Shown: positions 2,833 through 29,599 of the stretch, in pieces
Numbering within the stretch: position 1 is the first letter of the stretch
Layout of the letters: every line of letters starts with the position of its first letter
Source of the DNA: a virus
DNA: 32,332 nucleotides
Virus record (IMG/VR): IMGVR_UViG_3300001242_000065
Location: 1 to 32,332 of that record
Strand: one strand, 5' to 3'
Position numbers and translations under genes: made by a program
The notes under the pieces: model-generated
The model's input: only the letters and a program-made list of their open reading frames with translations
Told to the model about the DNA's origin: nothing
Databases searched by the model: none

Positions 2833-2879
2833 TTTAATTCTCCCCCGAGAAGGTTTTATTTTCTGATTTTTGTCCCCTG

Positions 2880-2918: not shown

Positions 2919-2962
2919 GAAAAATAACTTTAAAGTAAAAAAATATTGCGCGGGGGTAACTC

Positions 2963-11075: not shown

Positions 11076-11257
11076 TTTACCCTCACTCTGGTTCTGGTCC
11101 TAACCCGTTCATGACTGATAGGTAAGGCTCTTCTTCGTTTAGGTTCCCCGCGCATATAGGCTATAACTAGGCCACAAATAGGACAGGATTTAACCCACTG
11201 CCCATAGGTTAAATCCTGGGCCTGAAATCCTTTACATTTTGGGTTTGGGCATTTCAT
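11072..11257 (-). CDS. Zinc-ribbon small protein
   Basis: 61 aa. Two cysteine pairs, MKCPNPKC at the N-terminus and SCPICG near residue 25, form a zinc-ribbon pattern. The tail is strongly basic ([21 protein letters not shown] region), suggesting nucleic-acid contact. Both ends overlap neighbours by ATGA. The specific role is unknown; similar ribbons occur in small phage transcription or DNA-handling proteins. Confidence 0.65.
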
Positions 11258-11751
11258 AATCTTTTTATATCATCCCTGAATTCACAGAAATAATCAGATA
11301 CAGCCATTTTACGAATGATTTCAATAGCCTCTTGAACACCTCCAGAAGTCTCTATCCAATCACCTCTTGTAAGATGGAAAATCATTTGGGCAAATAGACG
11401 GTCATCCCCTTTGAACCTAGTTCCACCACAGTGGAACGGTATTCCTGATGAAAAATCAAGGTCAGCCCCTCCCAGGTTAGCCCCTCCCAGGTCAGCCTCT
11501 CTCAGGTCAGCCTCTCCCAGGTTAGCCCCTCCCAGGTTAGCCCCTCCCAGGTTAGCCCATCTCAGGTTAGCCCATCTCAGGTTAGCCCCTCCCAGGTTAG
11601 CCTCTCCCAGGTTAGCCCCTCCCAGGTTAGCCCCTCCCAGGTTAGCCCCTCCCAGGTTAGCCCATCTCAGGTTAGCTCGTTTTCCGTATCTTTTATTACT
11701 TTCAATCCAAAGTAAATGTTCAGCTAATATATCATATAATAATCTTTTCAT
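11254..11751 (-). CDS. Pentapeptide-repeat protein
   Basis: 165 aa from the ATG at 11751, chosen because AAAGGAG lies about 6 nt upstream; an upstream ATG at 11790 overlaps the previous gene. The centre is an uninterrupted run of about 15 A(N/D)LxX pentapeptides ([15 protein letters not shown]), which fold as a right-handed quadrilateral beta-helix. The C-terminal 60 residues ([18 protein letters not shown] and following) are helical and seen in other phage pentapeptide proteins. Some family members mimic DNA and protect gyrase (for example Qnr/MfpA), but the surface residues here (Gly, Trp, Arg) are not a clear DNA mimic. The DNA repeats are nearly identical, so repeat number may vary. Confidence 0.85.
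11461..11670. repeat. Fourteen tandem 15-bp units coding pentapeptides
   Basis: Units of the form GTYAGCCYCTCYCAG follow each other with no spacer; most differ at three or fewer positions and several are identical. Identity at third codon positions indicates recent expansion by slippage or unequal recombination. Confidence 0.9.
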
Positions 11752-11753
11752 GC

Positions 11754-11939
11754 CTACTCCTTTATTAGACAATAACCAGCTAACATCCAACCTTCTCCTG
11801 CTGGTTTATATTGGCAGATTTGTTTTATAATAGGACCGTGACTATTTTTCCATTTTAAATCATTAATTTGAATATTGGTTATACTTTTGGTTTCAGTCTT
11901 TCCCTTTTGCTTTCTCCAGAAACTAGCATTAATCAGCAT
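11754..11939 (-). CDS. Hypothetical small basic protein
   Basis: 61 aa; fills the space between the pentapeptide gene and the next gene upstream, with AAAGGTAAG before the ATG. Basic N-terminus ([13 protein letters not shown]), then a segment ending [14 protein letters not shown] that looks like two beta strands. Not recognised. It is accepted because spacing and ribosome site fit the operon, though its shortness leaves doubt. Confidence 0.5.
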
Positions 11940-15099: not shown

Positions 15100-15301
15100 C
15101 CTTGAGTGTATTCCCGTATCAGATTACTCCTGCTTTCTGGATAGTGTGGGCGTAATGGACGCTACTGATTGGGAAATATTGCGTAAAATGGTCAGGGAAA
15201 GTGATTTTGTATATATCTGTGAACGAAATCAATATACAGGTCATCACTATTTTATCCACTTCCTTCCCCTAGTAAGCAAGGGCCAGGGGTATATAAAATG
15301 A
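15092..15301 (+). CDS. Hypothetical small protein between terminase subunits
   Basis: 69 aa if read from the GTG at 15092, which has GAGG 9 nt upstream; a GTG at 15077 would add five residues but lacks a site. It overlaps the small terminase end by 8 bp and the large terminase start by ATGA, so it is probably translated. Content: VVDLECIPVSDYSCFLDS, an acidic helix DATDWEILRKMVRESD, and GHHYFIHFLPLV. Not recognised. Confidence 0.55.
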   Translation: MVDLECIPVSDYSCFLDSVGVMDATDWEILRKMVRESDFVYICERNQYTGHHYFIHFLPLVSKGQGYIK

Positions 15302-16857
15302 GTACTGGGGGTCAATATCTTCCCAGTCTGATTGAATTCTGGAGGATAAAACGGAAACACCAGGGGTTGCCCTGTATTATTAAGCCGTTTCATTATGATC
15401 TGGCAAATGCATATACTAAGTTGCTCTTAGGGGTACTACCCCGGCCTAACCTGATGGTCTTGGAACCCCCTAGGTGTTTGAAGACAAGTCTTTGTGATAC
15501 GTTTATTGAGTACGCTCTTTCATATTTTCCGGATAGTGAGTTCATTAAGGCTGGATTTGGTAAGGAATTACCTGTAGAGAGCGTGATTGATATTCGTAAT
15601 ACACTTTCAAGTGATTGGTATCGGAGCATGGTAGATGATCAGTGGGGTTGCCATGTTCAGATGATTGGTGAGAAAGCAGGTGGTCGTCAGGACCACTTTT
15701 ATACCCTGGAGGGTGGTAGCGTTAAGGCCGGTGGCGTTGGCACGGGTATTATCGGTTTCGGAGCTGGTAAGTTAAGGCCTGAATTTGGCGGGGCTATCGT
15801 AATGGATGACCTTCTTAAACCCCAGGATATGCGCTCTGCAGTGGTGAGGAAGGCTACCTGGGATTATGTACAGAATGGCCTTAAACCCCGGAGAAACCGG
15901 CAGAGTCCTCCATATACGCCCATTATTCTCATAATGCAGAGACTCCACCCGGAAGATCCTGCTGGAATGTGCCTGAGGGAAGAACGTGATGACTGGTATG
16001 TGGTGTGCGTACCGGCACATAATCCTGATGGTACGAGTATTTGGGAGGAAAGGATCTCAGCTGCTGAGCTTGAGAAGATGCGGGCGCGGGACCCGGAAAA
16101 GTATTATAGTCAGTACCAGCAGAACCCAAAAGCAGGTGCGGGTGTAATACTCCAGGGGCAATGGTGGTACCACTGGCAGGACCGGCTTGAGATGGAAAGA
16201 AGATTTACCCTCAAGTTCATTACTGCTGATACTGCGTTTAAGGCCCAGGATGCTAATGACTGGAGTGTATTTCAATGCTGGGGGTGTGAGGGTAAACAGG
16301 GCTTACACCTTGTTGATCAAATAAGGGGAAAATGGGAATTCCCTGAACTTCTGAAGTATGCCAAGGCATTTTGGCTTAAACACCGAACACCCCGGCGTGG
16401 ATATACCCCGGCAGCACATTTCTTCATTGAGGACAAGGCAAGTGGTATCAGTCTTATCCAGAGTATGCAGCGTCAGGGTATCCCGGTAATACCCTGGGCA
16501 CCGGCTGATAATACTAGCCCTGATAAGGTGGGACGTGCTAAACAGGCAAGTGATCCTCTTGCTACAGGTAGGATAAGCCTTCCACCACTAGATGCTCGAC
16601 AGGATCTTAAATGGAGAGATTTACCCCCGGCGTTTAAGCGGGAGTACCCCCGGCCTGATACCTTTGAGGATTTGCCTGATATTAAGTGGGTACAATGCCT
16701 AAAGGATGAGGCTGAGAGTTTTTCAACTGATGACAGTCATCTTTTTGATGACCAGGTTGATACATTTACTGAGGCTGCTTGTATTTGGATGGAGAATGGT
16801 GGGGGTGTAGGACCCCTGCCCAATATGAGTGGACTTATACAAATTAATGAACAATAG
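15298..16857 (+). CDS. Terminase large subunit (packaging ATPase/nuclease)
   Basis: 519 aa. The ATPase part has a deviant Walker A, EPPRCLKTSL (56-65), and Walker B AIVMDDLLKP (166-175). The RNase H-like nuclease part begins FITADTAFKAQDANDWS (Asp311), continues with FFIEDKASGISLIQ (Glu378) and has a late acidic cluster FDDQVD (484-488), all in the usual order. It pumps DNA into proheads and cuts the concatemer. The length is normal and the start overlaps the previous gene by ATGA. Confidence 0.93.
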   Translation: MSTGGQYLPSLIEFWRIKRKHQGLPCIIKPFHYDLANAYTKLLLGVLPRPNLMVLEPPRCLKTSLCDTFIEYALSYFPDSEFIKAGFGKELPVESVIDIRNTLSSDWYRSMVDDQWGCHVQMIGEKAGGRQDHFYTLEGGSVKAGGVGTGIIGFGAGKLRPEFGGAIVMDDLLKPQDMRSAVVRKATWDYVQNGLKPRRNRQSPPYTPIILIMQRLHPEDPAGMCLREERDDWYVVCVPAHNPDGTSIWEERISAAELEKMRARDPEKYYSQYQQNPKAGAGVILQGQWWYHWQDRLEMERRFTLKFITADTAFKAQDANDWSVFQCWGCEGKQGLHLVDQIRGKWEFPELLKYAKAFWLKHRTPRRGYTPAAHFFIEDKASGISLIQSMQRQGIPVIPWAPADNTSPDKVGRAKQASDPLATGRISLPPLDARQDLKWRDLPPAFKREYPRPDTFEDLPDIKWVQCLKDEAESFSTDDSHLFDDQVDTFTEAACIWMENGGGVGPLPNMSGLIQINEQ

Positions 16858-16865
16858 GATTATAT

Positions 16866-17066
16866 ATGTATAGTCTTGTCGTTAATTTACAATTATGTGT
16901 TGGTTGTGGGAATTGTACTGATATTTTTCGTGATCGTTATACTACACTCCTGAGCCGGGGGGAACTCTTGCTTGATGATCTTACTGATAAGGATAAGGAA
17001 TTAATTGAGTACGCTGTAAACCAATGTTATGTTGATGCCCTTTTATTTAAGGAGATTGCAAAATGA
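16866..17066 (+). CDS. Ferredoxin-like protein, single 4Fe-4S cluster
   Basis: 66 aa. Cys11, Cys14 and Cys17 (CVGCGNC) with a distant Cys54 in NQCYVDAL reproduce the spacing of single-cluster 4Fe-4S ferredoxins, in which the first three cysteines are CxxCxxC and the fourth precedes a P/Y-V-D-A-I/L turn. The acidic middle (LLLDDLTDKDKELIE) and total length also fit. The usual proline after the third and fourth cysteine is absent. It lies 8 bp after the large terminase stop, and its own stop overlaps the holin-like start, so it belongs to the late operon. It could carry electrons, or be a structural Fe-S protein; the sequence cannot decide. Confidence 0.7.
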   Translation: MYSLVVNLQLCVGCGNCTDIFRDRYTTLLSRGELLLDDLTDKDKELIEYAVNQCYVDALLFKEIAK

Positions 17067-17272
17067 GTTTTAAGCCCATGACACATAGGAAATCTATTAT
17101 AATCGCTCTGGTTGTAATAGCTGAGACTGCGTTGGTATTGTCCGGCCTTGCTCTTTTCCGGGCTGACCTGGATAAGACAATCCTGCTTGCCCTTATTGGC
17201 GTGGCATCAAATATTGTGTCCGTACTGGCTGGGGTATATATCGGTAAGACAAAAGAGGATACCCCAGCGTGA
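17063..17272 (+). CDS. Two-helix membrane protein, holin-like
   Basis: 69 aa: a basic N-terminus (KPMTHRKS), a first membrane helix (IIIALVVIAETALVLSGLAL), a short loop with charges (RADLDK) and a second helix (ILLALIGVASNIVSVLAGVYIG), ending in a charged tail (KTKEDT). Size and topology fit class II holins, and it stands in the late operon. No endolysin or spanin is recognisable beside it, so the holin call rests on topology and position alone. Confidence 0.5.
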   Translation: MSFKPMTHRKSIIIALVVIAETALVLSGLALFRADLDKTILLALIGVASNIVSVLAGVYIGKTKEDTPA

Positions 17273-18741
17273 AAAAGAAACTCTTTATACTAGCTTTGTT
17301 TCTCTGCCTGCCTTCTGTTGGGTGGGCTGCAGTATATTACCATGATCCTGATTGCGCAGAAAATGGGAATGGGCTTTCTTTCGCGTGTGCAGAAACTCCA
17401 GGCGGTGCAGGGGCTTTCAATACTACCTCTGGCGTCACATACTCAGGGGCTAATTGGTATTTATTTAAAGCTGGTTCAACTATGTCTGCCGCCTATGTAG
17501 ATATTTCTGCTGGTGGGACCTCGGCATCAGATAGGTTAACCATTGGGAGCTACACAACGGGTGGGGTGATCACAACATCAAAAGCCGTTCTTGATGGTTT
17601 CGGCAATGGGCAGACCAGAGTAATAAATTCAACCAATAAGTATTACTGGACTATCCAGGATCTTGAAATTGTCTATGACGATGAATTAACGCAAGATAAT
17701 CGTATAGGGATCGCGTGCCCGTCATCAGGAGGAACAGTTAGTACTGATTACGACAACATCATCCAGAGGGTATACGTTCACGATATACTAATAGACGAGT
17801 CTGCTGGTAATTATGCAAACGGGATTCGCTCTGTTAGCAATGGAGGATTGCAAATTATAGACACCGCCATAGATAATATATCGAGTGATGACTTTTATGG
17901 TGGTGGTGATAATTTGCAAATTATCAGGCCAAATTTTTCAGGATCTGGGCAAGGGTCTTTGGTGACAGGTGATGAAATTCAGCTAACCACTGGTACTGGA
18001 TGGTTAGTACAGGGCGGGACACTTACTCATCCCCAGCATGACGAGAAGAATACTTTCAACGCTGCTTCTACTGCTGGGGCCGGAGTGATCGAGGACGTCA
18101 CGTTGAATTGTTATGAGGGAGAGGCATTAGCAGCTTACTGCTGTTATATCCAAGCTCCAGGTACAGTTGCCAGAAGATTAAAAATAAAGGGCAGCGGCAT
18201 AGTTGGTCCTGTATTTTTTTCGGCGTCATCTACTGGCGGCGAATTCTATGATAACTATGTTATTGCGACTCAGGCAGCAGACCGGGGTGCATATGTTTTC
18301 GCAAATGACGTAAGCATGCTCAATAACACATTCGTTTATAATGGAAGTGGCGCTTCAACTGGTTATGGAATTCATGAACCTGTGACCATTACAGGTGGAA
18401 TTCAAACCAATAATATTATCTCTGGATTTTCAACAGGTATCCGCAGCACAAATAGCACAGATAGCTACAATGATATTCACGGGGTTACGTCAGACTGTAC
18501 AAATTCTGACGGTACAGCAAGAGATTGTGGGACAGGGACAATAACCTCTGACCCGCTTCTCGATAGCCAAGGACACCCGGCTTTGAATTCCCCAGTTATT
18601 AATGCTGGGGCTGATGTGGGTTTACCCTTTTGGGGTACTGCTCCTGAGATTGGTGCTTTTGAAGTTGGGGGGTACCCAGTTAAAGTCAATAACTTACCAT
18701 ACCTGATGCCAATTTGGCGGATGGGCGTAGGTGTACAGTAA
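17269..18741 (+). CDS. Secreted right-handed beta-helix protein, possible depolymerase
   Basis: 490 aa starting at a GTG that overlaps the previous TGA (GTGA). Residues 1-20 are a Sec signal peptide: KKK, a hydrophobic core LFILALFLCLP, and likely cleavage after VGWA. The body has regular short beta strands with turn-rich repeats (TIQDLEIVYDD, NIIQRVYVHDILID, GGLQIIDTAIDNI, EFYDNYVIATQ), typical of pectate-lyase-like parallel beta-helices used by phage tailspikes to cut polysaccharides. The C-terminus (DPLLDSQGHPALNSPVINAG, then IGAFE) resembles secreted bacterial beta-helix proteins. A signal peptide on a phage spike is unusual. Catalytic residues are not identifiable. Confidence 0.7.
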   Translation: MKKKLFILALFLCLPSVGWAAVYYHDPDCAENGNGLSFACAETPGGAGAFNTTSGVTYSGANWYLFKAGSTMSAAYVDISAGGTSASDRLTIGSYTTGGVITTSKAVLDGFGNGQTRVINSTNKYYWTIQDLEIVYDDELTQDNRIGIACPSSGGTVSTDYDNIIQRVYVHDILIDESAGNYANGIRSVSNGGLQIIDTAIDNISSDDFYGGGDNLQIIRPNFSGSGQGSLVTGDEIQLTTGTGWLVQGGTLTHPQHDEKNTFNAASTAGAGVIEDVTLNCYEGEALAAYCCYIQAPGTVARRLKIKGSGIVGPVFFSASSTGGEFYDNYVIATQAADRGAYVFANDVSMLNNTFVYNGSGASTGYGIHEPVTITGGIQTNNIISGFSTGIRSTNSTDSYNDIHGVTSDCTNSDGTARDCGTGTITSDPLLDSQGHPALNSPVINAGADVGLPFWGTAPEIGAFEVGGYPVKVNNLPYLMPIWRMGVGVQ

Positions 18742-18769
18742 TAAATTAGAGAAAAGAGAGGAGAAGGTA

Positions 18770-19192
18770 ATGTCACGACTGATATGGTTAAAAACAATAG
18801 CACTATGGTTGGGTATAGCTGGGTGTTTACTCCCCCTGTTCTCATGTGATGTCCTGGCTGCTCCGTCATATAAGTCAGGGCAGGCTGCTGCAACGGGTGC
18901 AGTAAATTATACCTTTACTGCTGAGGATGAATCTTGGGTGCAGGAAGTTCGCCTTCACCTTGGAGCCGTGGGACAGGCCGGTAATCTAGTTATTTTTGTG
19001 GACCGGGTAACTGGACCCTCTTATGATGTTGTTTATGTTACTCAGGACATGACCTCAACCCAGAATTTTGTATACCAGCCGGTAAGTCCTATAGTGCTCC
19101 AGGCTGGGGATGCCCTACGTGTTACCTGGGTAAATGCAAGTAATATTGGCTATGGTCTTGAGGTTGTTTACACTAAGGGGTGGACACGATGA
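18770..19192 (+). CDS. Small secreted beta-rich protein
   Basis: 140 aa from the ATG at 18770, chosen for GAGAGGAGAAGG just upstream. N-terminal signal peptide with core IALWLGIAGCLLPLF and likely cleavage at VLA/AP. The mature part, about 110 residues, alternates beta strands (NYTFTAEDESWVQEVRLHLG, NLVIFVDRV, ALRVTWVNASNIGYGLEVVY), suggesting a jelly-roll or carbohydrate-binding sandwich. Its end overlaps the fibre gene. Probably an accessory of the neighbouring exported proteins; family unknown. Confidence 0.65.
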   Translation: MSRLIWLKTIALWLGIAGCLLPLFSCDVLAAPSYKSGQAAATGAVNYTFTAEDESWVQEVRLHLGAVGQAGNLVIFVDRVTGPSYDVVYVTQDMTSTQNFVYQPVSPIVLQAGDALRVTWVNASNIGYGLEVVYTKGWTR

Positions 19193-20832
19193 AAAGCGGT
19201 ATAACCTTTTTAATCCTATTGACCTGGTTGATCCTCTTCCCGGTTATAGGCCAGGGTGCTGTTCTTGTTAATGGTGTGGATCAATCTGGGGGTGACCTCC
19301 ATTTTGTAGCCCTGTCATCTTGCGTGGGTATAACTGATGGAGTGTGTTATAATCTTACAGATCATAAACTGTATCAATGGAATGGCCTGGCAGTAGTTGA
19401 ATTTACAGGTACAGGTGATAACCTTGGGACGTCAACGTATGAAACAGTACGTGAGCTTTGGGGGGCTGGTACAGGGTTTTTACTTACGGACGGGACAGTT
19501 AAGGCTGAATCAGCTATCTCTATTACTACAGATCAAATTACTGACTTACCTACCTATTTAGATTATGCGGATATTGTAGCTCTATGGGCAGCAGGGACGG
19601 GGTTGCTTAAAACAGATGGCACAATTGATGCGAGTGTTTATCTTACTGCTGAGGCTGATCCTGTATTTCTGGCATGGGATAAAGATTATACTGATCTGAT
19701 TAATACCCCTACTATTCCGGCAGCTTCCACGGATTTATCTGATACTGCTGATCTATTACGTACAACTGATATTGGGGTGAGTGTACAGACTCCTCTTGTT
19801 GCTGGGACTGATTATCTCGCTCCTGATGGAGACGGAAGCGGGCTGAGCGGGGTGGGCGACATCACCGGAGTTCTTGGGGATGTAACAGGAGATGTTCCAG
19901 TTCTTTATCAAACATATTCAGCATTCACCGGGTCTGATGCGACCCCAGACGTGTCAACCAGTAGCCACTGGAAAACGGTTGACACCACAACGATAACTAC
20001 ATTTGACGGGACTCCGGTTGATGGTCAGCACTTATGGGTAAGGTGTGATGCTGCAACCGTGTTTGATCTGACAAGTTCCGGTATTGTGTCAGTGAACAGA
20101 ACCAGTGATTTTACTTGTGCCGCAAATACCATTCTGCATTTCATCTATGATGGCACCAGCGCAAAGTGGATCGCTACGAACATGCCGACTACGGCGGATC
20201 AGATTTCAACAACTGGACTGGTTTACTACACATCTGGAGTTGGTTTTTCTAGCACCGCTACCCCTCCGCTTGGGATTCCAGCAGATTCTACAGTGGCAAC
20301 TATTTTCGGAAGGGATGCGAATAATAATTTGACATTGGGGGTTTCTGGAACCAGCACAAATACATTCTGGAAAGGTAATGACTCAGCCACAAACGGGGAC
20401 ACAACGCAGGCATGGTCTGCTGATAAGGTGTACGATCAGTTGGCACTCAAACAGGACAAGTCCACTTTCCCGGTAGATTTCTGTGTGGCTATCAGCGACG
20501 AAGCAACAGACCTGACCGCTGGGGCAGCGAAAGTAACTTTCCGTGCACCATATGCTTTTACGTTGACTTCTTTGCGAGCCTCTGTGAATACGGCCCCGGT
20601 AGGGTCAACCATTATCATCGATGTGAATGAGGCGGGAACCACATTGATGACCACAAATAAACTGTCTATTGATGCCTCAGAGTTGACCAGTGTGACAGCA
20701 GCAACGGCCCATACTTTGACGGATACTGCCATTGCTGACGATGCGCTGATGACAGCCGATATTGATCAGATTGGAAGCTCAACAGCAGGTAAGGGGGCAA
20801 AGATATGTTTGTACGGTACGCGGGAACTTTAA
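19189..20832 (+). CDS. Secreted tail-fibre-like protein
   Basis: 547 aa from the ATG at 19189 (AAGGGG 8 nt upstream, ATGA overlap with the previous stop). Signal peptide: FLILLTWLILFPVIG, cleavage near GQGA/V. The mature chain has features of phage fibres: LYQWNG near the N-terminus, linker repeats such as TAEADPVFLAWDKDYTDLIN, SADKVYDQLALKQDK, and a C-terminal beta domain FRAPYAFTLTSLRASVNTAP...IIIDVNEAGTTLM that is widespread at fibre tips. The fibre-like content combined with a signal peptide is the odd point. It lacks a recognisable virion-anchoring N-terminal domain. Confidence 0.75.
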   Translation: MKSGITFLILLTWLILFPVIGQGAVLVNGVDQSGGDLHFVALSSCVGITDGVCYNLTDHKLYQWNGLAVVEFTGTGDNLGTSTYETVRELWGAGTGFLLTDGTVKAESAISITTDQITDLPTYLDYADIVALWAAGTGLLKTDGTIDASVYLTAEADPVFLAWDKDYTDLINTPTIPAASTDLSDTADLLRTTDIGVSVQTPLVAGTDYLAPDGDGSGLSGVGDITGVLGDVTGDVPVLYQTYSAFTGSDATPDVSTSSHWKTVDTTTITTFDGTPVDGQHLWVRCDAATVFDLTSSGIVSVNRTSDFTCAANTILHFIYDGTSAKWIATNMPTTADQISTTGLVYYTSGVGFSSTATPPLGIPADSTVATIFGRDANNNLTLGVSGTSTNTFWKGNDSATNGDTTQAWSADKVYDQLALKQDKSTFPVDFCVAISDEATDLTAGAAKVTFRAPYAFTLTSLRASVNTAPVGSTIIIDVNEAGTTLMTTNKLSIDASELTSVTAATAHTLTDTAIADDALMTADIDQIGSSTAGKGAKICLYGTREL

Positions 20833-21392
20833 TATTTTTACTTAGTTTGTGCTTGAATTGTTATGCATCAGATTGGCTGCTTAATTCTTATACATTTAAT
20901 ACCGAGGCAGGATGCACTACGGGGCAAACCATTATTGGCGACGCCGCCACAACTAATAATTATGGGTTGTCGAATAATTTAATATATTTTGTTCGCAAAA
21001 CGGCAGCAAAATCATGTAATTTGGCTACGATAGTTACCCATTTTTCTGATGCCGGTTCTACAACAACTTTTCGTTCTGCTATATATGCTGATAATGGATC
21101 TGGTACAGCACCGACAGGAGATCCCTTAGGGTATACAGCGCAGTGTAATACTACAGCTGGCGATGGCAACCCGGAGGATGCGGATTGTGCATTAGGTTCG
21201 GCTGTCAGTCTCACCGCATCAACATATTATTGGATGGGGACAATAGCCAATAACACTACAGGAGTTTATTATGGCACTACTTCTGCAAATGGCTATATGT
21301 CATGGGCGTATAGCCCGACAGATCCGTTCCCGACAATAGCATCATTTTCCGCGTGGAATAAAGACTGGTCATTAAGTGGAGAAAGTGAATGA
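20805..21392 (+). CDS. Secreted beta-rich protein of the fibre cluster
   Basis: 195 aa; starts 28 bp inside the fibre gene with AAGGGGG before the ATG. Signal peptide with core TLIFLLSLCLNC and likely cleavage after YAS. The mature part has several cysteines (AGCTTG, KSCNLATI, AQCNTT, DADCALG) that could form disulfides after export, which itself supports an extracytoplasmic location. Strands such as STYYWMGTIANNT and TTFRSAIYADNGSG recall fibre/lectin sandwich domains. Function not recognised. Confidence 0.65.
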   Translation: MFVRYAGTLIFLLSLCLNCYASDWLLNSYTFNTEAGCTTGQTIIGDAATTNNYGLSNNLIYFVRKTAAKSCNLATIVTHFSDAGSTTTFRSAIYADNGSGTAPTGDPLGYTAQCNTTAGDGNPEDADCALGSAVSLTASTYYWMGTIANNTTGVYYGTTSANGYMSWAYSPTDPFPTIASFSAWNKDWSLSGESE

Positions 21393-24247
21393 AAAGATTA
21401 ACGTTATTTTTTCTTTTTTTGCTAACTTATGTTAATTTTGCCTTTGGCAGTACAATTACTTTAGTAATAAAAGATAGTTCTGGAGTTGATAGAACAAGCA
21501 AATACGTATCGTATGGAATTCCTCTTAGCATGTCTGATAATGCCGTGTCTATTTCAACATTTAAAATATCTACCGATGAGGCGGGGACTTCTATTATTGA
21601 CGCCCAGTTCAACATAATTTCTCGGTATGATCTAGATGGAGACGGCTGGGAAGAAACAGAGCCTATCCGTACAGTTCTTTTAACTTTTCCAGCTACCGTA
21701 TCAGCTAATATGTCATCTACATATTATTTTCATACTACTGACGGGAGTGGAAATGTTGCTGGTGATAATTTAGCAGATAACTCAAATGAGGCATACTGCG
21801 CTATTAATGCAAGTTCACTATTGTTACATGTTAAAAAGACAGCAGGATTTAACCTTTTTGATCAAGTGACGGTAGATTCCACAGACATTGTTTCGTCTCC
21901 TGCCACGGATGGAATTATCCTCACTTCAGATAACGGTGGTGAAACCGCTGTTGATTACACAAGTTTCTCAAGCAATAACGCGCCAACAGTCTCAATTGTT
22001 TACAATGGTCCATTGATGGCGGTTGTCAAGGTGGCAGGTCATCTTGAGGACTCAAGCAATAACACTTTAATTCCGAGTGGGGAGAATCCGTCTGCGGTTA
22101 ACCCTATATCATATGCAGTATGGTATACTCTTTTTAAAGATGAAAGATATATTAAGGTTGATTTCAGGATTAAAAACGAAAATCCAGGGGCTGCAGGATA
22201 TGAGACAACTACAAACAGAAATATAGAAATAGCGAATCTTTACCTTAAAACTACTCTTGCTGGACTTGGAACAGTTACAGAAATTGATTTTTCAGACTGG
22301 TCTGATTTGACCAGTCCGTCAGGTGTGTACGATATTGAACAAGATCATTGTTTGCCTGGTGCGTGTGCTCAAGCGTCTGAATCGGATGCGGAAGCAATTC
22401 CAAACTTTAACTATTATATCAAATCTGATGTTAGTGGAACTCCTAATACTGAGTACACAGGAAGACGTTTTGACTCATATTCGCAGATACGTGATTCGGA
22501 TAGGGGGTTGATAGTTGCTGGCCGGTGGTGTTGGCAGAATTGGCCGTTTACAATCAAAGAAGATGCAACAAACAAAATAACCGAAGTGCATTTACTGCCA
22601 AACACTGGAACAGACCATATTTTAATGGGAGCTGCATGGAAAACATGGCAATTGATTTACGATTTTCATGCAGATGTTGCTTCTGACTATACATTTGATT
22701 CTGAACTAGCACAATTGAAATACCCTTTCGTTATTTTCCCAAGTAATTTAACAACATCAAATTTTTTCGGTGAACGTTTAGGACCGGCAAGTTTGACTAC
22801 GTCGATTACATATTCAGGCGGGGAATCGTTAGACGATGCAATAACAAACCAACAAAATTCTATCAGGGCACAATTTGATTCTACGTATTCCACCAATGAG
22901 TCTATGTTGTATGATATATTTGATTTAATGGAGTCAAGGCCAAAGACCTCTACTACTGGCATATATAATGGCCCAATCGACTGGTACGGGTGGCAACATT
23001 GGGGTGATTTAGTTAGAGATGAACTTGGATTTGGTGCTTTGAATTATGATTGGAACTATTTCGCTTCCGCATTTGGGAATTGTTTTCAGGATTTAGCAAT
23101 GGTATATGAGGGTGATGCGATGAGTTTGCGTACCGCAGATTCATTAATATTGCATCAACCTATAAACGACACAACAACAATTAATACATCTGGCGCAACA
23201 GTTCGTGATTTGCATGGCGGGTCCCGGGATGAATATAATGCAACATGCGAGGGTACTTCATTTTTAACTGGGTTTCAGAATAATGGATGCGTAACAAATA
23301 AACATCAACATTTAATTGGTCTCATATTTAATTATATTTTGACAGGAGATGATAAGTTATTTGATGGACTAAAAGATGCTGGAGATTTTATTAGACACAA
23401 TTATAGTTCAATTGCCCCTGATCATGGTGTATTTGATGGAGCAACCTCTGTTCCAGAAAAAAGATGTGATTTAGGAACATGTACATATTATAATACAGTA
23501 GAAACACGTCAATTTTCAAGAAGTATTGAATATGCGTCGTTATTGTATCAATCTACTGGAGATACTGATTATTTAACATTAGCTAAAAAAATATTTGAAA
23601 ATGCTTTATTGCAAAATGAGGATGCTGGTGGTGGATCTTTAGGATCTGACAGCGGGTCTGTTTATGTTTGGTATACTGATCAGGCATTACGTCCAGCTAT
23701 TGCTTTGTATAATTTATTATATGAGGTTGGTGATTCATATAAATCTAGCGTATCTGCATGGTTACTTCGTCTTGTTTCTTGGTATGATAATGTTTTTGAC
23801 AACTATCTGCTAGCGCAACCTGGATACGGAACAGGAGAGAATGAGGGGAAATACTTAGCGTATACACAGGGAGCCGAGTTAATTTCTGGTGCATTCTCCG
23901 GTTTATGGCATCCTGAATATATTACTGAGGTTGCTGACTTATATGCGTTTGCATATTTAGTAACAAATGAACAAGAATATTTGGATAGGGCAGCAAGAAT
24001 GTTTACTGATAAATGGTTTTATGCCGGTCAAAATACCTATGAGACTATTAATAATATTGTTGAGGCGGCATATGCGAATGATGGTCCTGCGGGCGGGGAT
24101 GCATGGTTAAAAGAGGGAATTTCTTTAATGGGTGGAAATTATTTTTTATGGGTCAAAGGACGAAGCCCCTTAGTCAGAAAAATAAATGGCGCAAACGGCC
24201 ACATGCCAATATCAGCAGAAGGAAAAACATTTGAGGCGGTGCAATAA
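21389..24247 (+). CDS. Large secreted RIFT-barrel/toroid protein, putative polysaccharide lyase
   Basis: 952 aa; ATGA overlap with the previous gene. Signal peptide (core LTLFFLFLLTYVNFAF, cleavage near AFG/S). Residues about 20-400 are beta-rich with an early DLDGDGWEE segment, like the N-terminal RIFT barrel of PcRGLX/YetA-type proteins. From about 530 the sequence is helical with aromatic repeats (WYGWQHWGDLVRDELGFG, NKHQHLIGLIFNYILTGD, ETRQFSRSIEYASLLYQSTG), typical of the alpha/alpha toroid of secreted uronate/rhamnogalacturonate lyases. I infer a glycan-degrading enzyme; substrate unknown. The second half is more A/T-rich than the late genes around it, suggesting separate acquisition. 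Confidence 0.65.
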   Translation: MKRLTLFFLFLLTYVNFAFGSTITLVIKDSSGVDRTSKYVSYGIPLSMSDNAVSISTFKISTDEAGTSIIDAQFNIISRYDLDGDGWEETEPIRTVLLTFPATVSANMSSTYYFHTTDGSGNVAGDNLADNSNEAYCAINASSLLLHVKKTAGFNLFDQVTVDSTDIVSSPATDGIILTSDNGGETAVDYTSFSSNNAPTVSIVYNGPLMAVVKVAGHLEDSSNNTLIPSGENPSAVNPISYAVWYTLFKDERYIKVDFRIKNENPGAAGYETTTNRNIEIANLYLKTTLAGLGTVTEIDFSDWSDLTSPSGVYDIEQDHCLPGACAQASESDAEAIPNFNYYIKSDVSGTPNTEYTGRRFDSYSQIRDSDRGLIVAGRWCWQNWPFTIKEDATNKITEVHLLPNTGTDHILMGAAWKTWQLIYDFHADVASDYTFDSELAQLKYPFVIFPSNLTTSNFFGERLGPASLTTSITYSGGESLDDAITNQQNSIRAQFDSTYSTNESMLYDIFDLMESRPKTSTTGIYNGPIDWYGWQHWGDLVRDELGFGALNYDWNYFASAFGNCFQDLAMVYEGDAMSLRTADSLILHQPINDTTTINTSGATVRDLHGGSRDEYNATCEGTSFLTGFQNNGCVTNKHQHLIGLIFNYILTGDDKLFDGLKDAGDFIRHNYSSIAPDHGVFDGATSVPEKRCDLGTCTYYNTVETRQFSRSIEYASLLYQSTGDTDYLTLAKKIFENALLQNEDAGGGSLGSDSGSVYVWYTDQALRPAIALYNLLYEVGDSYKSSVSAWLLRLVSWYDNVFDNYLLAQPGYGTGENEGKYLAYTQGAELISGAFSGLWHPEYITEVADLYAFAYLVTNEQEYLDRAARMFTDKWFYAGQNTYETINNIVEAAYANDGPAGGDAWLKEGISLMGGNYFLWVKGRSPLVRKINGANGHMPISAEGKTFEAVQ

Positions 24248-24318
24248 TGGCAACAGACTCGATAGCAAAATCAGCAGGGCGTGGCAGGGTACTGGCCGTG
24301 GCAATAACATTTGAGTGA
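24247..24318 (+). CDS. Micro-ORF 1 (23 aa)
   Basis: Starts on the last base of the previous stop (TAATG). Peptide MATDSIAKSAGRGRVLAVAI plus TFE. Its last codons (AVAITFE, GCAATAACATTTGAGTGA) nearly repeat in the next micro-ORF. GAGG lies 10 nt upstream. Whether it is translated is unproven. Confidence 0.35.
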   Translation: MATDSIAKSAGRGRVLAVAITFE

Positions 24319-24323
24319 AAGAA

Positions 24324-24398
24324 ATGGACCCAGTAAACAAATCCTTTCGAGTAGGTGCCGGCCTTATGTCTGGTGGCACTGCAATGACATTTGAGTGA
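24324..24398 (+). CDS. Micro-ORF 2 (24 aa)
   Basis: Peptide MDPVNKSFRVGAGLMSGGTA then MTFE; the final 18 bases match micro-ORF 1 except for one base. Glycine-rich hydrophobic middle. Ribosome site weak (GTGAAAG), so translation would rely on coupling to the preceding stop 5 bp away. Confidence 0.35.
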   Translation: MDPVNKSFRVGAGLMSGGTAMTFE

Positions 24399-24402
24399 TA
24401 AT

Positions 24403-24486
24403 ATGAAAAAACTATTTTCGGAATCAGGAGACGTCTCAACCGTCCGCGTGGCTACATTGCTGACGGTTGCGGTGAACTATAAATGA
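24403..24486 (+). CDS. Micro-ORF 3 (27 aa), possible remnant of a small membrane protein
   Basis: Peptide begins MKKLFSESGDVSTVRVATLL and ends TVAVNYK; its stop overlaps the portal start (ATGA). The opening resembles the N-terminus of small phage membrane proteins (holin-like, SEDGxxSxxRxM pattern) that normally continue through two hydrophobic helices; here it stops just as the first begins. It may be a truncated remnant kept for translational coupling to the portal gene. Confidence 0.4.
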   Translation: MKKLFSESGDVSTVRVATLLTVAVNYK

Positions 24487-26582
24487 GCAAGCGTATACGT
24501 ATAAGAGTCAATAATGCTGGGTTTACTGATCTAGCAGGTGGCCCTCTTGGTACAGGGGATCGGGGTGCATATAGCTCCCTCCCTGTTTATACAGGTAATC
24601 CATATGAGAGTAATGATTATGTTTTCCGTTGGCGACAATATGTACACTTATATGAGACCAGTTGGGAAGCCCGGAAAATTATTCGGATCATCCCTGAGGA
24701 TGCTCTGCGTAAAAAATGGGTTGCTGAAGACATCCCGGAACAGATGGCAAAACGGATTGATTCCAGGCTGGACCAGCTTCAATTCCTATCAGTTCTGAAG
24801 CGTAGTCTCATGCTTGAACGCTTGCTGGGTGGTTGTCTAACCTTTCTAGGTCTTGATGCGCAAAAGGATGAGCCTGAAAAGGTATTTCACCCCAGGGATG
24901 GGCAGGCCCTGCGGTTTTTGAATGCTGTACCTATAAGTCGTATTGCACGCATCCGGTGGTGTAATGACCCCCTGAGTGAACACTACATGCGGCCTGAGTC
25001 ATTCCTGGTCAATAGTAATGTTGTACACGTTAGTCGCTGCCTGGTATGGGATGGGGAGCCCCTATTTGACCCCTATGATTTTGCACTTAATAATTTTAGA
25101 TCTAACCTGGCTGGCTTTGGACCCTCTAAACTTGCTCCGGTCTGGGATGATATTGTTAAGGCTGTTGGTACCCGGCAGGCGGCATACCAGCTTATTCAGA
25201 TGAATAATGCGGTAATTGCAGCCATAGAGGGCCTAATTGATCTTCAGGGGACAACCTCAGGTCAGGCTGCAATTGAGAAGGTAAAGGAAATATCTAATCA
25301 GCTGAGTTTATACCGAGCTGCTGTTATTGACGGACGTAGTGTTGACATTAAACAACATAGTGCAAGTTTTGGTAGTGTACCTGAGCTGATCCTTACCTTT
25401 ATCCAGATTCTGAGCGCGGCAAGTGATATTCCGGCAACCCGTTTTCTTGGCCAAGCCCCTGGCGGTTTAAATGCTACGGGTGAGTCTGATCTTGAGAATT
25501 ATTATAATGTAATTGATAGCTATCAGCAACAGCGGATTGAACCTAATCTGCGCCGGGTATATGACGTACTGGGCTACAATATGTTTCCAAGTCAGTGGCC
25601 TAAAGAACGGGAAAATCTGGTTTTCAAGTTCCCCCCACTTTGGAATCAGAGCGATCTTGAAGAGAGTCAGACTGCAACGGCAAGAATTGATAACGTGATG
25701 AAACTCCTGTCTGAGGGTCTGATTGGAGAGGATAAGGCCATTGAGGAAATTAATGCCAAGGGCTGTCTGAGTGTGACCTTGGATGAAACCGATATCAGTA
25801 TTGTTGACCGTACTGGTCTTGTCGGACAGACTGATAATAATCAGGTTAATGTCGGTCAGGAAATTCAGAAATTACGGAACGGCATCCGGGTAAATAACAT
25901 GGATGCTCTTGGACTACTTCTCCGGGCTGCGGGCGCGTCCAACCCTGATGATATTGACCGCCAGGCCTTTGAAAAGGGATTTGCTGTTGAAATGGAACAT
26001 TTGGGTACCCTGGGTGGTGACCGGGTAAAGGTGGCTAAGGTAGTTCTGGATCATCTGCGTGAGCGTCAGGATTACTATGACCGGCTGGAACGAGTTGAGA
26101 ACTCAATTTATCTTGATAGACTTCCCCAGCCTACTGAGGGACAGCAGCATGCAGGGAATTATAAGAAACATCATCTGAAACTTCATGGCCTTGATTTCAG
26201 TATTGAGAACCCCCAGGGAAGTGAACGCCAGGGAAAAGATAGTGCTGGGAAATCTTGGACAAGTATTCTGCCGGCTCATTACGGGTATGTGCGAAGGACA
26301 GAGGGTGCTGATGGTGATCACGTAGATGCCTATATTGGCCCCCATGAGGAAAGTGAGCTGGTATTTGTAGTTGACCAGCAAGATCCCCAGAGCAAGAAGT
26401 TTGATGAGCATAAGGTTATCTTTGGCTGTCTGTCAATGTTGCAGGCGAAAGAGCTTTATGTATCAGCATTTAGTGATGGTCAGGGTGAGGCCCGGATTGG
26501 TGGAATTACCCCTGCGCATATTCAGGAATTTAGGGGTTGGCTTACCGGGGGAAATACGCACGCACCCTACGGTAAGAAGTAA
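24483..26582 (+). CDS. Portal protein (DUF1073-like) fused to an InPase-like domain
   Basis: 699 aa. Residues 1-450 are the portal: YESNDYVFRWRQYVHLYETS, WEARKIIRIIPEDALRKKW, LLGGCLTFLGLD, and the conserved AASDIPATRFLGQAPGGLNA then ESDLENYYNVIDSYQQQ. This is the DUF1073/HI1409-type portal forming the DNA gate at the head vertex. From about residue 555 there is a second domain, KKHHLKLHGLDFSIENPQG, ILPAHYGYVRRTEGADGDHV and DEHKVIFG, matching the inorganic-pyrophosphatase-like domain often appended to phage portal or head proteins; its role there is unclear. It is followed by a terminator. Confidence 0.88.
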   Translation: MSKRIRIRVNNAGFTDLAGGPLGTGDRGAYSSLPVYTGNPYESNDYVFRWRQYVHLYETSWEARKIIRIIPEDALRKKWVAEDIPEQMAKRIDSRLDQLQFLSVLKRSLMLERLLGGCLTFLGLDAQKDEPEKVFHPRDGQALRFLNAVPISRIARIRWCNDPLSEHYMRPESFLVNSNVVHVSRCLVWDGEPLFDPYDFALNNFRSNLAGFGPSKLAPVWDDIVKAVGTRQAAYQLIQMNNAVIAAIEGLIDLQGTTSGQAAIEKVKEISNQLSLYRAAVIDGRSVDIKQHSASFGSVPELILTFIQILSAASDIPATRFLGQAPGGLNATGESDLENYYNVIDSYQQQRIEPNLRRVYDVLGYNMFPSQWPKERENLVFKFPPLWNQSDLEESQTATARIDNVMKLLSEGLIGEDKAIEEINAKGCLSVTLDETDISIVDRTGLVGQTDNNQVNVGQEIQKLRNGIRVNNMDALGLLLRAAGASNPDDIDRQAFEKGFAVEMEHLGTLGGDRVKVAKVVLDHLRERQDYYDRLERVENSIYLDRLPQPTEGQQHAGNYKKHHLKLHGLDFSIENPQGSERQGKDSAGKSWTSILPAHYGYVRRTEGADGDHVDAYIGPHEESELVFVVDQQDPQSKKFDEHKVIFGCLSMLQAKELYVSAFSDGQGEARIGGITPAHIQEFRGWLTGGNTHAPYGKK

Positions 26583-26586
26583 TGGT

Positions 26587-26636
26587 GAGAACCCACTTGT
26601 CTGCCCCGCTACGGGGTTTTTAGGGTGCCCCCTATA
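26587..26636. repeat. 50-bp palindromic repeat, copy 2 (after portal gene)
   Basis: Second copy of the element at 8361-8410. Here it lies 4 bp after the portal stop and contains a terminator-like hairpin. A wider inverted repeat also spans it: CGGGGTTTTTA (26612-26622) with TAAAAACCCCG (26656-26666), 33 bases apart, giving alternative foldings of the transcript. Confidence 0.7.
26604..26621 (+). terminator. Short intrinsic terminator after the portal gene
   Basis: CCCCG CTA CGGGG TTTTT on the plus strand: a 5-bp GC stem, 3-nt loop and five T. It is short, and the next gene on the same strand has no clear promoter, so partial termination is likely. Confidence 0.6.
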
Positions 26637-26703
26637 GGGTAGCCTGCCCTGGGGGTAAAAACCCCGGAGAAACGAAACAAATTAGTATAATGGAGAGTAT
26701 CTA

Positions 26704-26937
26704 ATGGGAAATTTAATTGATAGAACATCTAAATTAACAATTCCTAATTTTTTAAGAATAGAAAAAGAAACAGTTACTGCGCAACATAAAATCTACTCAA
26801 AAGGGTTTAAAAATATAAGATCATATTGGTGGTGGGTGTGTAAATTTAGTTTTAATGATTTTTTCCGCGCCCTTTTGGGTATTAAAAGGACACCTAAACA
26901 GAATAAAAGAACACCATTACAGCGATTAGGGTTTTAA
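26704..26937 (+). CDS. Hypothetical small basic protein
   Basis: 77 aa; GGAGAG 8 nt before the ATG; stop overlaps the next start by one base. Basic and A/T-rich, with SYWWWVCKFSFNDFFRALLG, an aromatic-rich amphipathic segment, and a Lys/Arg-rich tail (KRTPKQNKRTPLQRLGF). Not recognised. Its base composition differs from the portal and morphogenesis genes on either side, suggesting it was inserted between them. Confidence 0.6.
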   Translation: MGNLIDRTSKLTIPNFLRIEKETVTAQHKIYSKGFKNIRSYWWWVCKFSFNDFFRALLGIKRTPKQNKRTPLQRLGF

Positions 26938-27854
26938 TGCCAATTTTACTTGACCATAAACAACTTGAGAAGCTGGAAAGACGTAGGCGTACCCCGCGCA
27001 GGGTTAAGGGCGTAAAAAGTCCTGCTAGTCCTGAGCGTATTCTACGTCAGCAGCTTGAAGCCCTGTGGGCGCGGGTATTACTACCGGCAACAGAACGCCT
27101 GAAACAATATGCGCAGGAAGGGGTAAACGCACAGGTTATAGCAGATTATCTTGATCAGGTATTACGTCAGGCTGAATTCGAATACGGACTGGCTGCAGAT
27201 GATTTCCTTACCACCTGGAAAGTGAGTATGGACCGGCAGACCCGGACGGCACTTATGCGTGGCCTTGCGGATAGTCTGGGCGTTGACCTCACAGCCCTTT
27301 ATGATGATCCTATTATTCAGGATGTACTTGCAGTAAGTTCCCTGGACGCTGCGGGGTTGATAACAAGTATTCCCAGTGAGTATCTTGGGCAGGTAGCACG
27401 GTCAGTACGGGATAACTTTACTGGTGTCCCTCTTCCTGAGGGCAGGAGCCTGACGGAACAGATACAACACCTTGGGAGTGTGAGCTATGGGCGGGCAAAG
27501 CTGATAGCCCGTGACCAGACAAAGAAGTTGAATTCAAATCTTAACCAGGCCAGGCAGCAGAGTGTTGGCATTACCCTGTATATTTGGAAAACGGTAAGGG
27601 ATGAGCGTGTTGTAGGCAGGCCGGGTGGTCTCTATCCCCAGGGAAATAAAGCACATGGTAACCACTACGTAATGGAAGGTTTGTACTGCCGGTGGGATGA
27701 CAGTACAGTTTATAGTGAGGACCGGGGGGAAACGTGGAAGAAACGTCAGGCTGAGATGCCCCAGACCCACCCTGGACAGGATATTCAGTGCCGGTGTCAT
27801 GCTGCCCCGGTTGTTGACATTGATCAAATACTAAAATATATGGAGGCTGCGTGA
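26937..27854 (+). CDS. Head morphogenesis protein (Mu gpF / SPP1 gp7-like)
   Basis: 305 aa. The C-terminal third carries the Mu F domain: KLIARDQTKKLNSNLNQARQ, YIWKTVRDERVVGRPGG, a GNHYVMEGLYCRW segment and the metal-binding-like HPGQDIQCRCHA. The N-terminal two thirds are helical. Proteins of this family act as minor head proteins during prohead assembly and usually follow the portal gene, as here. The start overlaps the preceding stop (TAATG) and the end overlaps the next start (TGATG). Confidence 0.85.
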   Translation: MPILLDHKQLEKLERRRRTPRRVKGVKSPASPERILRQQLEALWARVLLPATERLKQYAQEGVNAQVIADYLDQVLRQAEFEYGLAADDFLTTWKVSMDRQTRTALMRGLADSLGVDLTALYDDPIIQDVLAVSSLDAAGLITSIPSEYLGQVARSVRDNFTGVPLPEGRSLTEQIQHLGSVSYGRAKLIARDQTKKLNSNLNQARQQSVGITLYIWKTVRDERVVGRPGGLYPQGNKAHGNHYVMEGLYCRWDDSTVYSEDRGETWKKRQAEMPQTHPGQDIQCRCHAAPVVDIDQILKYMEAA

Positions 27855-28336
27855 TGAGTAATGTGATTAAAAAGGGACAAGTAGGAGAATTAGTTGGTAT
27901 TGGTTAATTTAAAATTAAGGATATACGAGGGGAAGTTTTAGATATTGAGTGGGATGATGGGCGTATAGGAGCAATGAATAGGGATTCTTTTTTGCGTTCT
28001 GGTGTAATAAAATGGAAAAATTCTCAAACCCCATTTGAAAACGGTTGTGCCCTGGCTCAGGCTGAAATTCAGAATAAACTGGGGAACAGGTTTGGGAATG
28101 ATAATTATCAGTTTGAATGGCAAAAATTAGAAACTCAAATTAGGTTTTTAAGAAAACAAATAGAAAATCTATATTCTGGGGCTTCAAAAGAGTTTACTGT
28201 TTCTGGGAATGTGGAAAAACAGCGATTAAATTATATTAAGGCTGATAAATTACAAAAGGAAATGGATGGATTAATTAAACAACGGAATAAACTTGAAGAG
28301 GAAGAAAGGAAAAAGGAAAAATCTTTTAATTTTTAA
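27854..28336 (+). pseudogene. Small head-region gene interrupted by an in-frame TAA
   Basis: An ATG at 27854 with GGAGG 7 nt upstream opens a frame reading MSNVIKKGQVGELVGIG, then TAA (27905-27907), then continues without further stops to 28336 (FKIKDIRGEVLDIEWDDGR...). The codons on both sides of the TAA make one plausible small beta-barrel (KGQVGELVGIG-x-FKIKDIRGEVLDIEW), followed by a helical coiled region (KLETQIRFLRKQIENLY, KLQKEMDGLIKQRNKLEEEE). The downstream part alone could restart at the ATG at 27974 and give 120 aa, but no good ribosome site is there. A nonsense mutation, suppression or a sequencing error would each explain it. Function unknown; it lies between head morphogenesis and protease genes. 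Confidence 0.65.
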
Positions 28337-28345
28337 GGAAATACC

Positions 28346-29599
28346 ATGCAACATATATTTAATTCATTCCTGGTAATTGATGAGCAGCCAGTACCCAAGT
28401 GGGAGAAAACTCCTGATGGCTTTCTTCGCTGCCGGGCGCGCATATTAGCAGAGCGGGTAATGCCCTATTCAGTACAAGAGTTTGAGGAAGGTTCACTTCC
28501 TATTAATACCCCTGACGTTATTAATATGTATGTGAGTGGGGAAACTCTTGCTGACCCTGCTGCATTACGTAGTTTGGAGGGCTCCCTGGTAGTAGCCGGG
28601 GATCATGCCTGGTGTGATCTTGAGACGGTTAAACAGCATGCGGTTGGTCACGTAGTGGGCACACCCTATGTTCAGGATGGATATGTATGGTGTGAACTTC
28701 TTATTACTGATCAGAGCACAATTGATAAGGTAGTGAATAAGGAACTTGGGGAAATCTCTGCAGCTTACCTGGCTGAAAGTGTGTTTGAACCTGGAGAATT
28801 TAACGGTCAAGCATATGATGCCCGGCAAGAGCAGTTACAATATAACCATGTTGCAGTCCTTCCTATTGGGCATGGACGTGCAGGCCGCGATGTTAGAATC
28901 ATGAACAAAAAAAATCAAGACAACAAAGGAGTAACTACAATGCCTGATGACAAAGACAAAGATGTAAAGGTAATTCGTGAACGACTGTTCCGGGTAAAGC
29001 TGGCTAATACCGGCAAGTTTATTAATGCTGATGAGGAAACGGCCACTGCTGTGGAGGAGGAGTCCAAAGTCAGTGGAGCCAAGCTGGAAACCACCATGAG
29101 TGAACTTGAGACCAAGAATGCTGAGCTTGCTGAACTCCAGGGCCAGGTTGAGGAACTTAAGGGCCAGCTCAGTGTCTACAAGGAAAAATTGGATCAGCTC
29201 CTTGCTGAGGAAACCATTGAGCACGCTGCTGAGGGTATGATTGCTGAGGGTGAAGAGGCTGAGGAAATCATTGAAAACTCAGCTATCTTCAATGAGAAGG
29301 GTGAGGAAGAGCCGGAGGAGAAGAAAAAGGAGTTCATGAACTCCCTGCGCAAACTCCATGGCCCCAAACTTCATACAGCTGTCCTCGGTGCCCTGGGTGT
29401 TAATACTGAGGGGATGTCCCCTGAGGCGATTCGTGGCTCTTTTAAGGCACAGCACCAGATCTGCAATTCCATGAAGGGTAAACGTACTGTTGCCGGCGCA
29501 AAGATGTTCAATAGCGGCATGAAGAGAGAAACCACTGTTGCTGGGGATGGTGTGAATCGTTCTGGCCATCAGCGCCTTGGTTTTGGCGGTAAGAAATAA
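28346..29599 (+). CDS. DUF2213 prohead protease with C-terminal scaffold
   Basis: 417 aa. Residues 1-190 match the DUF2213 protease-like pattern: RILAERVMPYSVQEFEEG, SLVVAGDHAW, ELGEISAAYLAESVFEPG, then YDARQEQLQYNHVAVLPIGHGRAG with the conserved NHVAV and GRAG. Residues 199-417 form a separate charged part with a coiled coil (ELETKNAELAELQGQVEELK) and an acidic region, the usual make-up of a scaffold. The enzyme would cleave scaffold and capsid during head maturation. AAGGA precedes the ATG. An internal start produces the scaffold part alone. Confidence 0.85.
   Translation: MQHIFNSFLVIDEQPVPKWEKTPDGFLRCRARILAERVMPYSVQEFEEGSLPINTPDVINMYVSGETLADPAALRSLEGSLVVAGDHAWCDLETVKQHAVGHVVGTPYVQDGYVWCELLITDQSTIDKVVNKELGEISAAYLAESVFEPGEFNGQAYDARQEQLQYNHVAVLPIGHGRAGRDVRIMNKKNQDNKGVTTMPDDKDKDVKVIRERLFRVKLANTGKFINADEETATAVEEESKVSGAKLETTMSELETKNAELAELQGQVEELKGQLSVYKEKLDQLLAEETIEHAAEGMIAEGEEAEEIIENSAIFNEKGEEEPEEKKKEFMNSLRKLHGPKLHTAVLGALGVNTEGMSPEAIRGSFKAQHQICNSMKGKRTVAGAKMFNSGMKRETTVAGDGVNRSGHQRLGFGGKK
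28940..29599 (+). CDS. Nested in-frame scaffold protein
   Basis: 219 aa read from the in-frame ATG at 28940, residue 199 of the protease. AAAGGAG (28925-28931) stands 8 nt before it, better than the outer gene's site. The product starts MPDDKDKDVKVIRERLF and comprises the linker, coiled coil and C-terminal part. Many phages make scaffold this way from an internal start in the protease gene (as lambda Nu3 in C), so more scaffold than protease is produced. Assignment rests on this arrangement. Confidence 0.6.
   Translation: MPDDKDKDVKVIRERLFRVKLANTGKFINADEETATAVEEESKVSGAKLETTMSELETKNAELAELQGQVEELKGQLSVYKEKLDQLLAEETIEHAAEGMIAEGEEAEEIIENSAIFNEKGEEEPEEKKKEFMNSLRKLHGPKLHTAVLGALGVNTEGMSPEAIRGSFKAQHQICNSMKGKRTVAGAKMFNSGMKRETTVAGDGVNRSGHQRLGFGGKK

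Follow-up and report, generated by a model that had tools for sequence, protein, structure and literature searches.

Five consecutive late genes of an uncultivated phage, lying between the genes for the terminase large subunit (TerL) and the portal protein, each begin with a predicted signal peptide. The question is whether their products are exported and, if so, whether they ever join a tailed-phage virion, a particle that is taught to be assembled wholly in the cytoplasm. The reading developed below, to which we give about an even chance, is that the five genes form an accessory set of adhesins, fibres and depolymerases made as Sec substrates and released with, and probably partly on, the virions.

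The window (the whole stretch of DNA that was analysed, 32,332 nucleotides) matches, at 100% identity, part of IMGVR_UViG_3300025010_000009 (68,775 bases), whose direct terminal repeat of 127 bases indicates a complete circular map of 68,648 bases (68.6 kb), numbered here from base 1 of the window. A contractile tail is predicted because the genome has matches to a sheath protein (phrog_205), a tape measure, Baseplate_J and a Collar fibre; the opposite strand carries UDG/exonuclease, ThyX, clamp-loader, RecA-like and helicase-like genes. The cassette (17269-24247) is flanked by the TerL and portal genes, and directly upstream of its first gene, with an overlap of 4 bases, is a gene for a 69-aa protein whose family matches are weak (DUF3792 and phrog_2720) and whose two transmembrane-like (TM-like) segments suggest a holin-like function (Table 1). 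A capsid search of genome contigs found no relatives and so pointed to no prophage or host; an epimerase scan matched many diderm phyla about equally, singling out no host.

Several other features of the genome were noted. Between TerL and the two-TM gene is a 66-aa protein with a ferredoxin-like CVGCGNC motif (Fer4 matches sub-threshold), and a pentapeptide-like repeat protein (ANLGG repeats) is encoded by DNA with an underlying repeat of about 15 bases. The portal protein has DUF5661 and inorganic-pyrophosphatase domains fused to its C-terminus, the latter domain being present by itself in many other viral contigs. A short FENGRAKAQxEIxNK-like motif is repeated in several small, otherwise unrelated late proteins of the phage and is also scattered in its relatives G008, G009, G011, G014 and G017. 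From the window end onwards, a block intervening between head and tail genes contains sulfotransferase and sugar-transferase-like genes, and its gene order is kept in G008 and G006.

Table 1. Coordinates of the cassette, its borders and other features described in the text (window numbering unless a circular map or a relative is named).
Feature	Coordinates	Strand	Description
Pentapeptide-like repeat protein	11254-11790		ANLGG repeats
TerL	15298..16857	+	left border; phrog_38 E 1e-72; Idiomarinaceae phage 1N2-2 TerL 37%
66-aa protein	16866-17066		ferredoxin-like motif
69-aa protein	17063..17272	+	holin-like topology; two TM-like segments, KD 2.5 and 2.4
SP1	17269..18741	+	490 aa, exported (predicted); signal peptide MKKKLFILALFLCLPSVGWA followed by AVYY, score 8.3, own-composition shuffles 0%
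SP1 predicted signal peptide	17269..17328	+	20 aa
SP2	18770..19192	+	140 aa, small; weakest signal peptide, cut probably after VLA, residue 30
SP3	19189..20832	+	547 aa, exported (predicted) fibre; phage tail-fibre C-terminal domain
SP3 predicted signal peptide	19189..19257	+	21-23 aa
SP4	20805..21392	+	195 aa, exported (predicted); signal peptide MFVRYAGTLIFLLSLCLNCYA followed by SDWL
SP4 predicted signal peptide	20805..20867	+	21 aa
SP5	21389..24247	+	952 aa, exported (predicted), PcRGLX-like, polysaccharide-lyase-like; bacterial homologues
SP5 predicted signal peptide	21389..21448	+	20 aa
Portal protein	24483..26582	+	right border; PF06381 E 1e-59, PF18823 E 1e-45
FENGRAKAQxEIxNK-like motif sites	window 27974-28336; circular map 36815-37003, 37236-37466, 40746-40994
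Head/tail intervening block	circular map 32198-36179		sulfotransferase and sugar-transferase-like genes
SP6	circular map 49548-50057		between baseplate gene and Collar fibre
About 130-aa gpF-protease protein	G007 4461-4892; G014 2807-3205; G011 4066-4446		signal-bearing
Genes after fibre genes	G015 (IMGVR_UViG_3300028835_002099) 23893-28921		1164-aa and 447-aa proteins

The open reading frames begin at 17269, 18770, 19189, 20805 and 21389, the last ends at 24247, and each is preceded by a Shine-Dalgarno-like sequence; the short overlaps and small gaps claimed for them in the initial annotation were seen as one 28-base gap and overlaps of 4, 28 and 4 bases. Signal peptides were called by our own scorer of n-, h- and c-regions, used in place of SignalP. 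Of 19 well-known signal peptides of E. coli it recovered 18, and its background calls are 2 among the other 67 phage genes with products of 100 aa or longer and 0.7% among shuffled N-termini. All five of the signal peptides claimed initially were called, four of them convincingly: the scores of SP1 (8.3), SP5 (7.8), SP4 (6.9) and SP3 (6.85) are equalled by at most 0.7% of own-composition shuffles, and these proteins have a clear Sec/SPI architecture (positive n-region, hydrophobic h-region, small residues at -3 and -1, no further transmembrane segment). The fifth, SP2, is weak, with a score of 6.0 that is reached by 15% of own-composition shuffles and an N-terminus that has a long hydrophobic stretch and Asp at -4 of the cleavage site between VLA and AP; its export is likely rather than secure. 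Five adjacent calls against a background of about 3% are far beyond chance, and Sec targeting of the cassette proteins is well supported by their N-termini. A lipobox check found a marginal IAGC motif in SP2 alone, inside its hydrophobic stretch; the idea of SP2 as a lipoprotein or small superinfection-exclusion protein was dropped, and the cassette proteins range from 140 to 952 aa. No clear site with Gln at +1, as in the Bacteroidetes Q-rule, was found in the window proteins, SP3 alone having an alternative between VIG and QG, which would be anticipated if the host is not one of the Bacteroidota. Outside the window, the tail-fibre module of the complete genome contains a sixth signal-bearing gene, SP6 (169 aa).

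SP3 is recognisable from its sequence as a phage-type fibre, which confirms its initial label of fibre-like. Its residues 416-546 are similar to tail-module proteins of isolated phages (37-55% identity, tblastn E 6e-11 to 3e-3; 37-54% when aligned) that infect Synechococcus, Sphingomonas, Microcystis, Planktothrix and a rhodobacterial host, and this C-terminal domain matched 520 viral-contig stretches. Among the 74 complete N-termini of the best 80 of these stretches, convincing signal peptides were found in the window phage and L114 only, and the genes neighbouring the L114 fibre are also signal-bearing. The SP3 gene is placed between TerL and portal, not with the tail-module genes that follow the baseplate. 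Residues 52-174 match gp101 of Cellulophaga phage phi19:1, which is itself signal-bearing and annotated from MS/MS, and through this one repeat-rich stretch SP3 is the only member of the window cassette to share detectable sequence with a Cellulophaga cassette.

Homology supports the placement of SP5 among PcRGLX-like proteins with a RIFT barrel, a beta-sandwich and an alpha/alpha toroid, with putative lyase activity. It has matches in 5 of 395 Desulfobacterota genomes (25-34% identity, open frames of 900-1017 aa) and aligns with homologues of about 900-1000 aa over most of its length (22-27%); the four homologues that were scanned match PF21345 (PcRGLX_2nd) above cut-off, together with toroid matches, and some homologues carry their own signal peptide. 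SP5 itself is below cut-off against all family models (GH127 toroid E 1e-4, C5-epim_C E 0.002). The initial label of RIFT-barrel/toroid lyase-like thus holds in kind, by way of the bacterial homologues, but is sub-threshold for SP5 itself. A PDB sequence search with SP5 found nothing, and its single-sequence AlphaFold2 model has a pLDDT of 35, at which the Foldseek matches to designed helical repeats were set aside as noise.

The other three proteins are less informative. SP1, initially labelled a beta-helix, is possibly of the right-handed type and SP4 possibly a lectin-like beta-sandwich; searches of Pfam, PHROG, NCBIfam and 297 Desulfobacterota genomes found no match for either. A PDB sequence search with SP1 gave antibody-light-chain chance matches only, and its single-sequence AlphaFold2 model (pLDDT 33) is uninformative. 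SP2 has a sub-threshold match to choice_anch_R of NCBIfam (E 0.03). For SP1, SP2 and SP4, the searches gave no diverged homologues in which conservation of the signal could show.

Relatives of the phage were found by capsid and portal searches, with head proteins 50-77% identical. The TerL-portal interval is empty in G004, G006 and G012; in G008 it contains lectin-like, fibre and SGNH-hydrolase proteins, all signal-less, and in G009 a CBM96 protein, an SGNH hydrolase and an SP6 homologue (47%), all three signal-bearing, besides other proteins. The SGNH family is represented by a signal-bearing protein in G009 and a signal-less one in G008, which are 33% identical. In the interval between portal and gpF, G012 encodes a fibre and a lectin-like protein, both signal-less, and G007 four signal-bearing proteins, including a DUF1565 protein and a weakly GH123-like one. 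In G006, the baseplate-linked fibre is directly followed by two signal-bearing proteins, one of them a collagen tail fibre (phrog_5073 E 1e-16). Because the TerL-portal and portal-gpF intervals of relatives contain fibres, lectins and hydrolases that are either signal-less or signal-bearing, these intervals resemble a second site for fibres or decoration, which may be occupied by exported or cytoplasmic versions.

Cassette content is wholly different from relative to relative, and this complete turnover, like the bacterial homologues of SP5, would be expected if the genes were morons, i.e., recently captured bacterial secreted genes that have no function in the phage cycle and occupy a tolerant insertion site. 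However, the genes are tightly packed with overlapping starts and ribosome sites, SP3 is of phage type, and the pattern is found again both elsewhere in the group and among the Cellulophaga phages described below, all of which makes the moron explanation very improbable.

Elsewhere in the relatives, a signal-bearing protein of about 130 aa with one conserved Cys pair is encoded between gpF and the protease in three genomes (G007, G014 and G011). After its fibre genes, G015 encodes a 1164-aa signal-bearing repetitive protein, the C-terminal part of which is autotransporter-like, and a 447-aa porin-like protein (labels assigned by eye).

The cysteines of the mature proteins bear on the question of export. 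For the window phage and its relatives, taking exported proteins with any mature Cys, the number of Cys is even in 14 of 16 exported proteins; among signal-less proteins of structural or fibre type it is even in 8 of 27 (Fisher P 0.0004), and with one representative per family it is even in 11 of 13 exported proteins (P 0.002). Parity separates the groups, whereas Cys content alone fails to do so when replication genes are counted in. Mature SP1, SP3 and SP4 have eight, six and four Cys, respectively, and SP2 has none; SP5, with nine, is an exception. Even parity suggests that disulphides are formed outside the cytoplasm, as a statistical hint from small numbers.

The match of SP3 to phi19:1 led to the cassettes of Cellulophaga phages, for which virion status is taken from the GenBank wording "based on experimental MS/MS proteomics analysis". 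Consecutive signal-bearing genes are found in phi10:1 (gp091-095, four of the five MS/MS-annotated), phi19:1 (gp101-104, all four) and phi18:3 (gp085-087, all three), so that 11 of the 12 products of these runs are annotated in GenBank as virion proteins, an annotation that is also compatible with co-purified secreted protein. The window cassette likewise consists of at least three consecutive signal-bearing late genes. The premise of the initial annotation that virion proteins normally have no signal peptides is broken by these runs. The Cellulophaga cassette is common to Assiduviridae and Pachyviridae; its 777-aa lyase is 97-98% identical among phi19:1, phi10:1 and phi19:3, and phi14:2 and phi4:1 encode signal-less homologues of this lyase that are likewise MS/MS-annotated. 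The lyases of the phages Ingeline and Nekkels were described by Bartlau et al. as carrying 'signaling peptides' (PMC8776804).

Signal peptidase I substrates of Bacteroidetes have Gln at +1 (the Q-rule; PMC5837995). Gln immediately follows a plausible cut in 18 of 19 distinct Cellulophaga cassette N-termini, which are not all independent since several belong to near-identical homologues, compared with 4 of 79 among the remaining proteins from two of these phages; such a difference is difficult to account for if the signals are not in fact used. It bears on the possibility that the signal-like N-termini are unused for export and that their hydrophobic segments serve to anchor or pack the proteins while the tail is assembled in the cytoplasm, in which case virions would carry uncleaved forms. 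Such a role would suit the fibre-type domains, the location at a fibre site and the fact that, in Cellulophaga phages, signal-bearing products are annotated from MS/MS as belonging to the virion, but the complete n/h/c architecture, the Cys parity and the Q-rule of the Cellulophaga cassettes are expected only with real cleavage, and we consider it improbable.

Export without attachment has more in its favour. The five proteins could be secreted or periplasmic effectors that never join virions; late in infection they would bind or trim the glycans of the host's own surface, either to clear capsule or biofilm for release or to prevent readsorption and superinfection. This possibility, which we hold to be real but doubtful, draws on the same signal-peptide evidence for export, on the likeness of SP5 to bacterial exported polysaccharide-degrading proteins, on glycan-related genes in the genome (a sulfotransferase and a nucleotide-sugar epimerase/decarboxylase-like gene) and on the well-known freeing of soluble depolymerases at lysis (PMC5380687). 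Yet ordinary fibres occupy the same sites in relatives, SP3 has a fibre tip domain, and virion MS/MS underlies the annotation of the analogous proteins in Cellulophaga phages. The initial annotation had read the cassette as a secreted set that binds and degrades glycans, for capsule or biofilm clearing, for coating virions or for blocking superinfection. Export and a glycan-active or adhesin character are sustained by the signal calls and by SP3 and SP5 homology; among the proposed purposes, dressing of the virion is favoured, by analogy, over capsule clearing and superinfection blocking because the signal-bearing runs of Cellulophaga phages are MS/MS-annotated as virion proteins.

If the cassette is an accessory set released with and partly on virions, it would probably be expressed late in infection, and its products would be directed to the Sec machinery of the host and cleaved by signal peptidase, as their N-termini indicate. 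They would then fold in an oxidising compartment, mostly with paired Cys, as the parity statistics suggest, presumably accumulate in the periplasm or at the surface, and exit with the burst. At least some may become or remain associated with virions, as outer fibres or depolymerases, which for the window proteins is suggested by analogy with Cellulophaga phages only, and others, perhaps SP1 and SP5, may be free enzymes that act on capsule or biofilm. Points against this explanation are that an exported fibre must meet a cytoplasmically assembled tail before lysis, that the signal of SP2 is weak and that the Cys number of SP5 is odd. The more general proposal is that some tailed phages decorate their virions by a Sec-dependent pathway: fibres and depolymerases would undergo export, cleavage by signal peptidase and periplasmic oxidation, and would be loaded onto virions only at lysis or later, the cassette being transferable and not tied to one type of tail. 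This is tentative, and we place it somewhat below an even chance.

Accessory fibres and depolymerases are of a known kind; the unusual feature is the Sec route. In the literature on phage signal peptides, the clustered exported-fibre pattern was not found described and so is new as far as we found, signal peptides on flavophage lyases being already in print (PMC8776804). If fibres and depolymerases are routinely Sec substrates, the phage particle would be finished partly outside the cell and possibly disulphide-bonded, exported parts could be shared between co-infecting phages, and they would be missed or misread by annotation. Since the Cellulophaga phages are cultured, the question is directly testable now.

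The cassette and its members can be compared with four known systems. Textbook depolymerases, which occur in tail spikes or as soluble by-products of these, have no signal peptide and fold in the cytoplasm, whereas the cassette proteins are signal-bearing. Nevertheless, virion-associated and soluble phage depolymerases (PMC5380687) are, as the cassette proteins would be, glycan-active, expressed late and of use in adsorption or release. Bacterial PcRGLX-like proteins (PF21345/PF21346, rhamnogalacturonan exolyase-like) align lengthwise with SP5, some of them with signal peptides, but SP5 falls short of the PcRGLX models and is phage-encoded. The fibres of Synechococcus phage S-CRM01 (gp13), Sphingomonas phage Carli, RPMD05_87 and Microcystis phage Mwe-JY26 have an A2-type C-terminal domain as in SP3 (37-55% identical); they have no signal peptide and are located in tail modules, in contrast to the signal-bearing SP3 in the TerL-portal interval. 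Closest in arrangement are the Cellulophaga cassettes (phi10:1 gp091-095, phi19:1 gp101-104, phi18:3 gp085-087, phi46:3 gp079-082 and Ingeline_1 31-34), which, like that of the window, consist of adjacent signal-bearing late genes, in runs of three to five that include fibre-like and pectate-lyase-like proteins, gp101 sharing a stretch with SP3. They differ in being located after tail genes or before lysis genes and not between TerL and portal, and in that their hosts are Bacteroidota and their signals obey the Q-rule, whereas the signals of the window do not.
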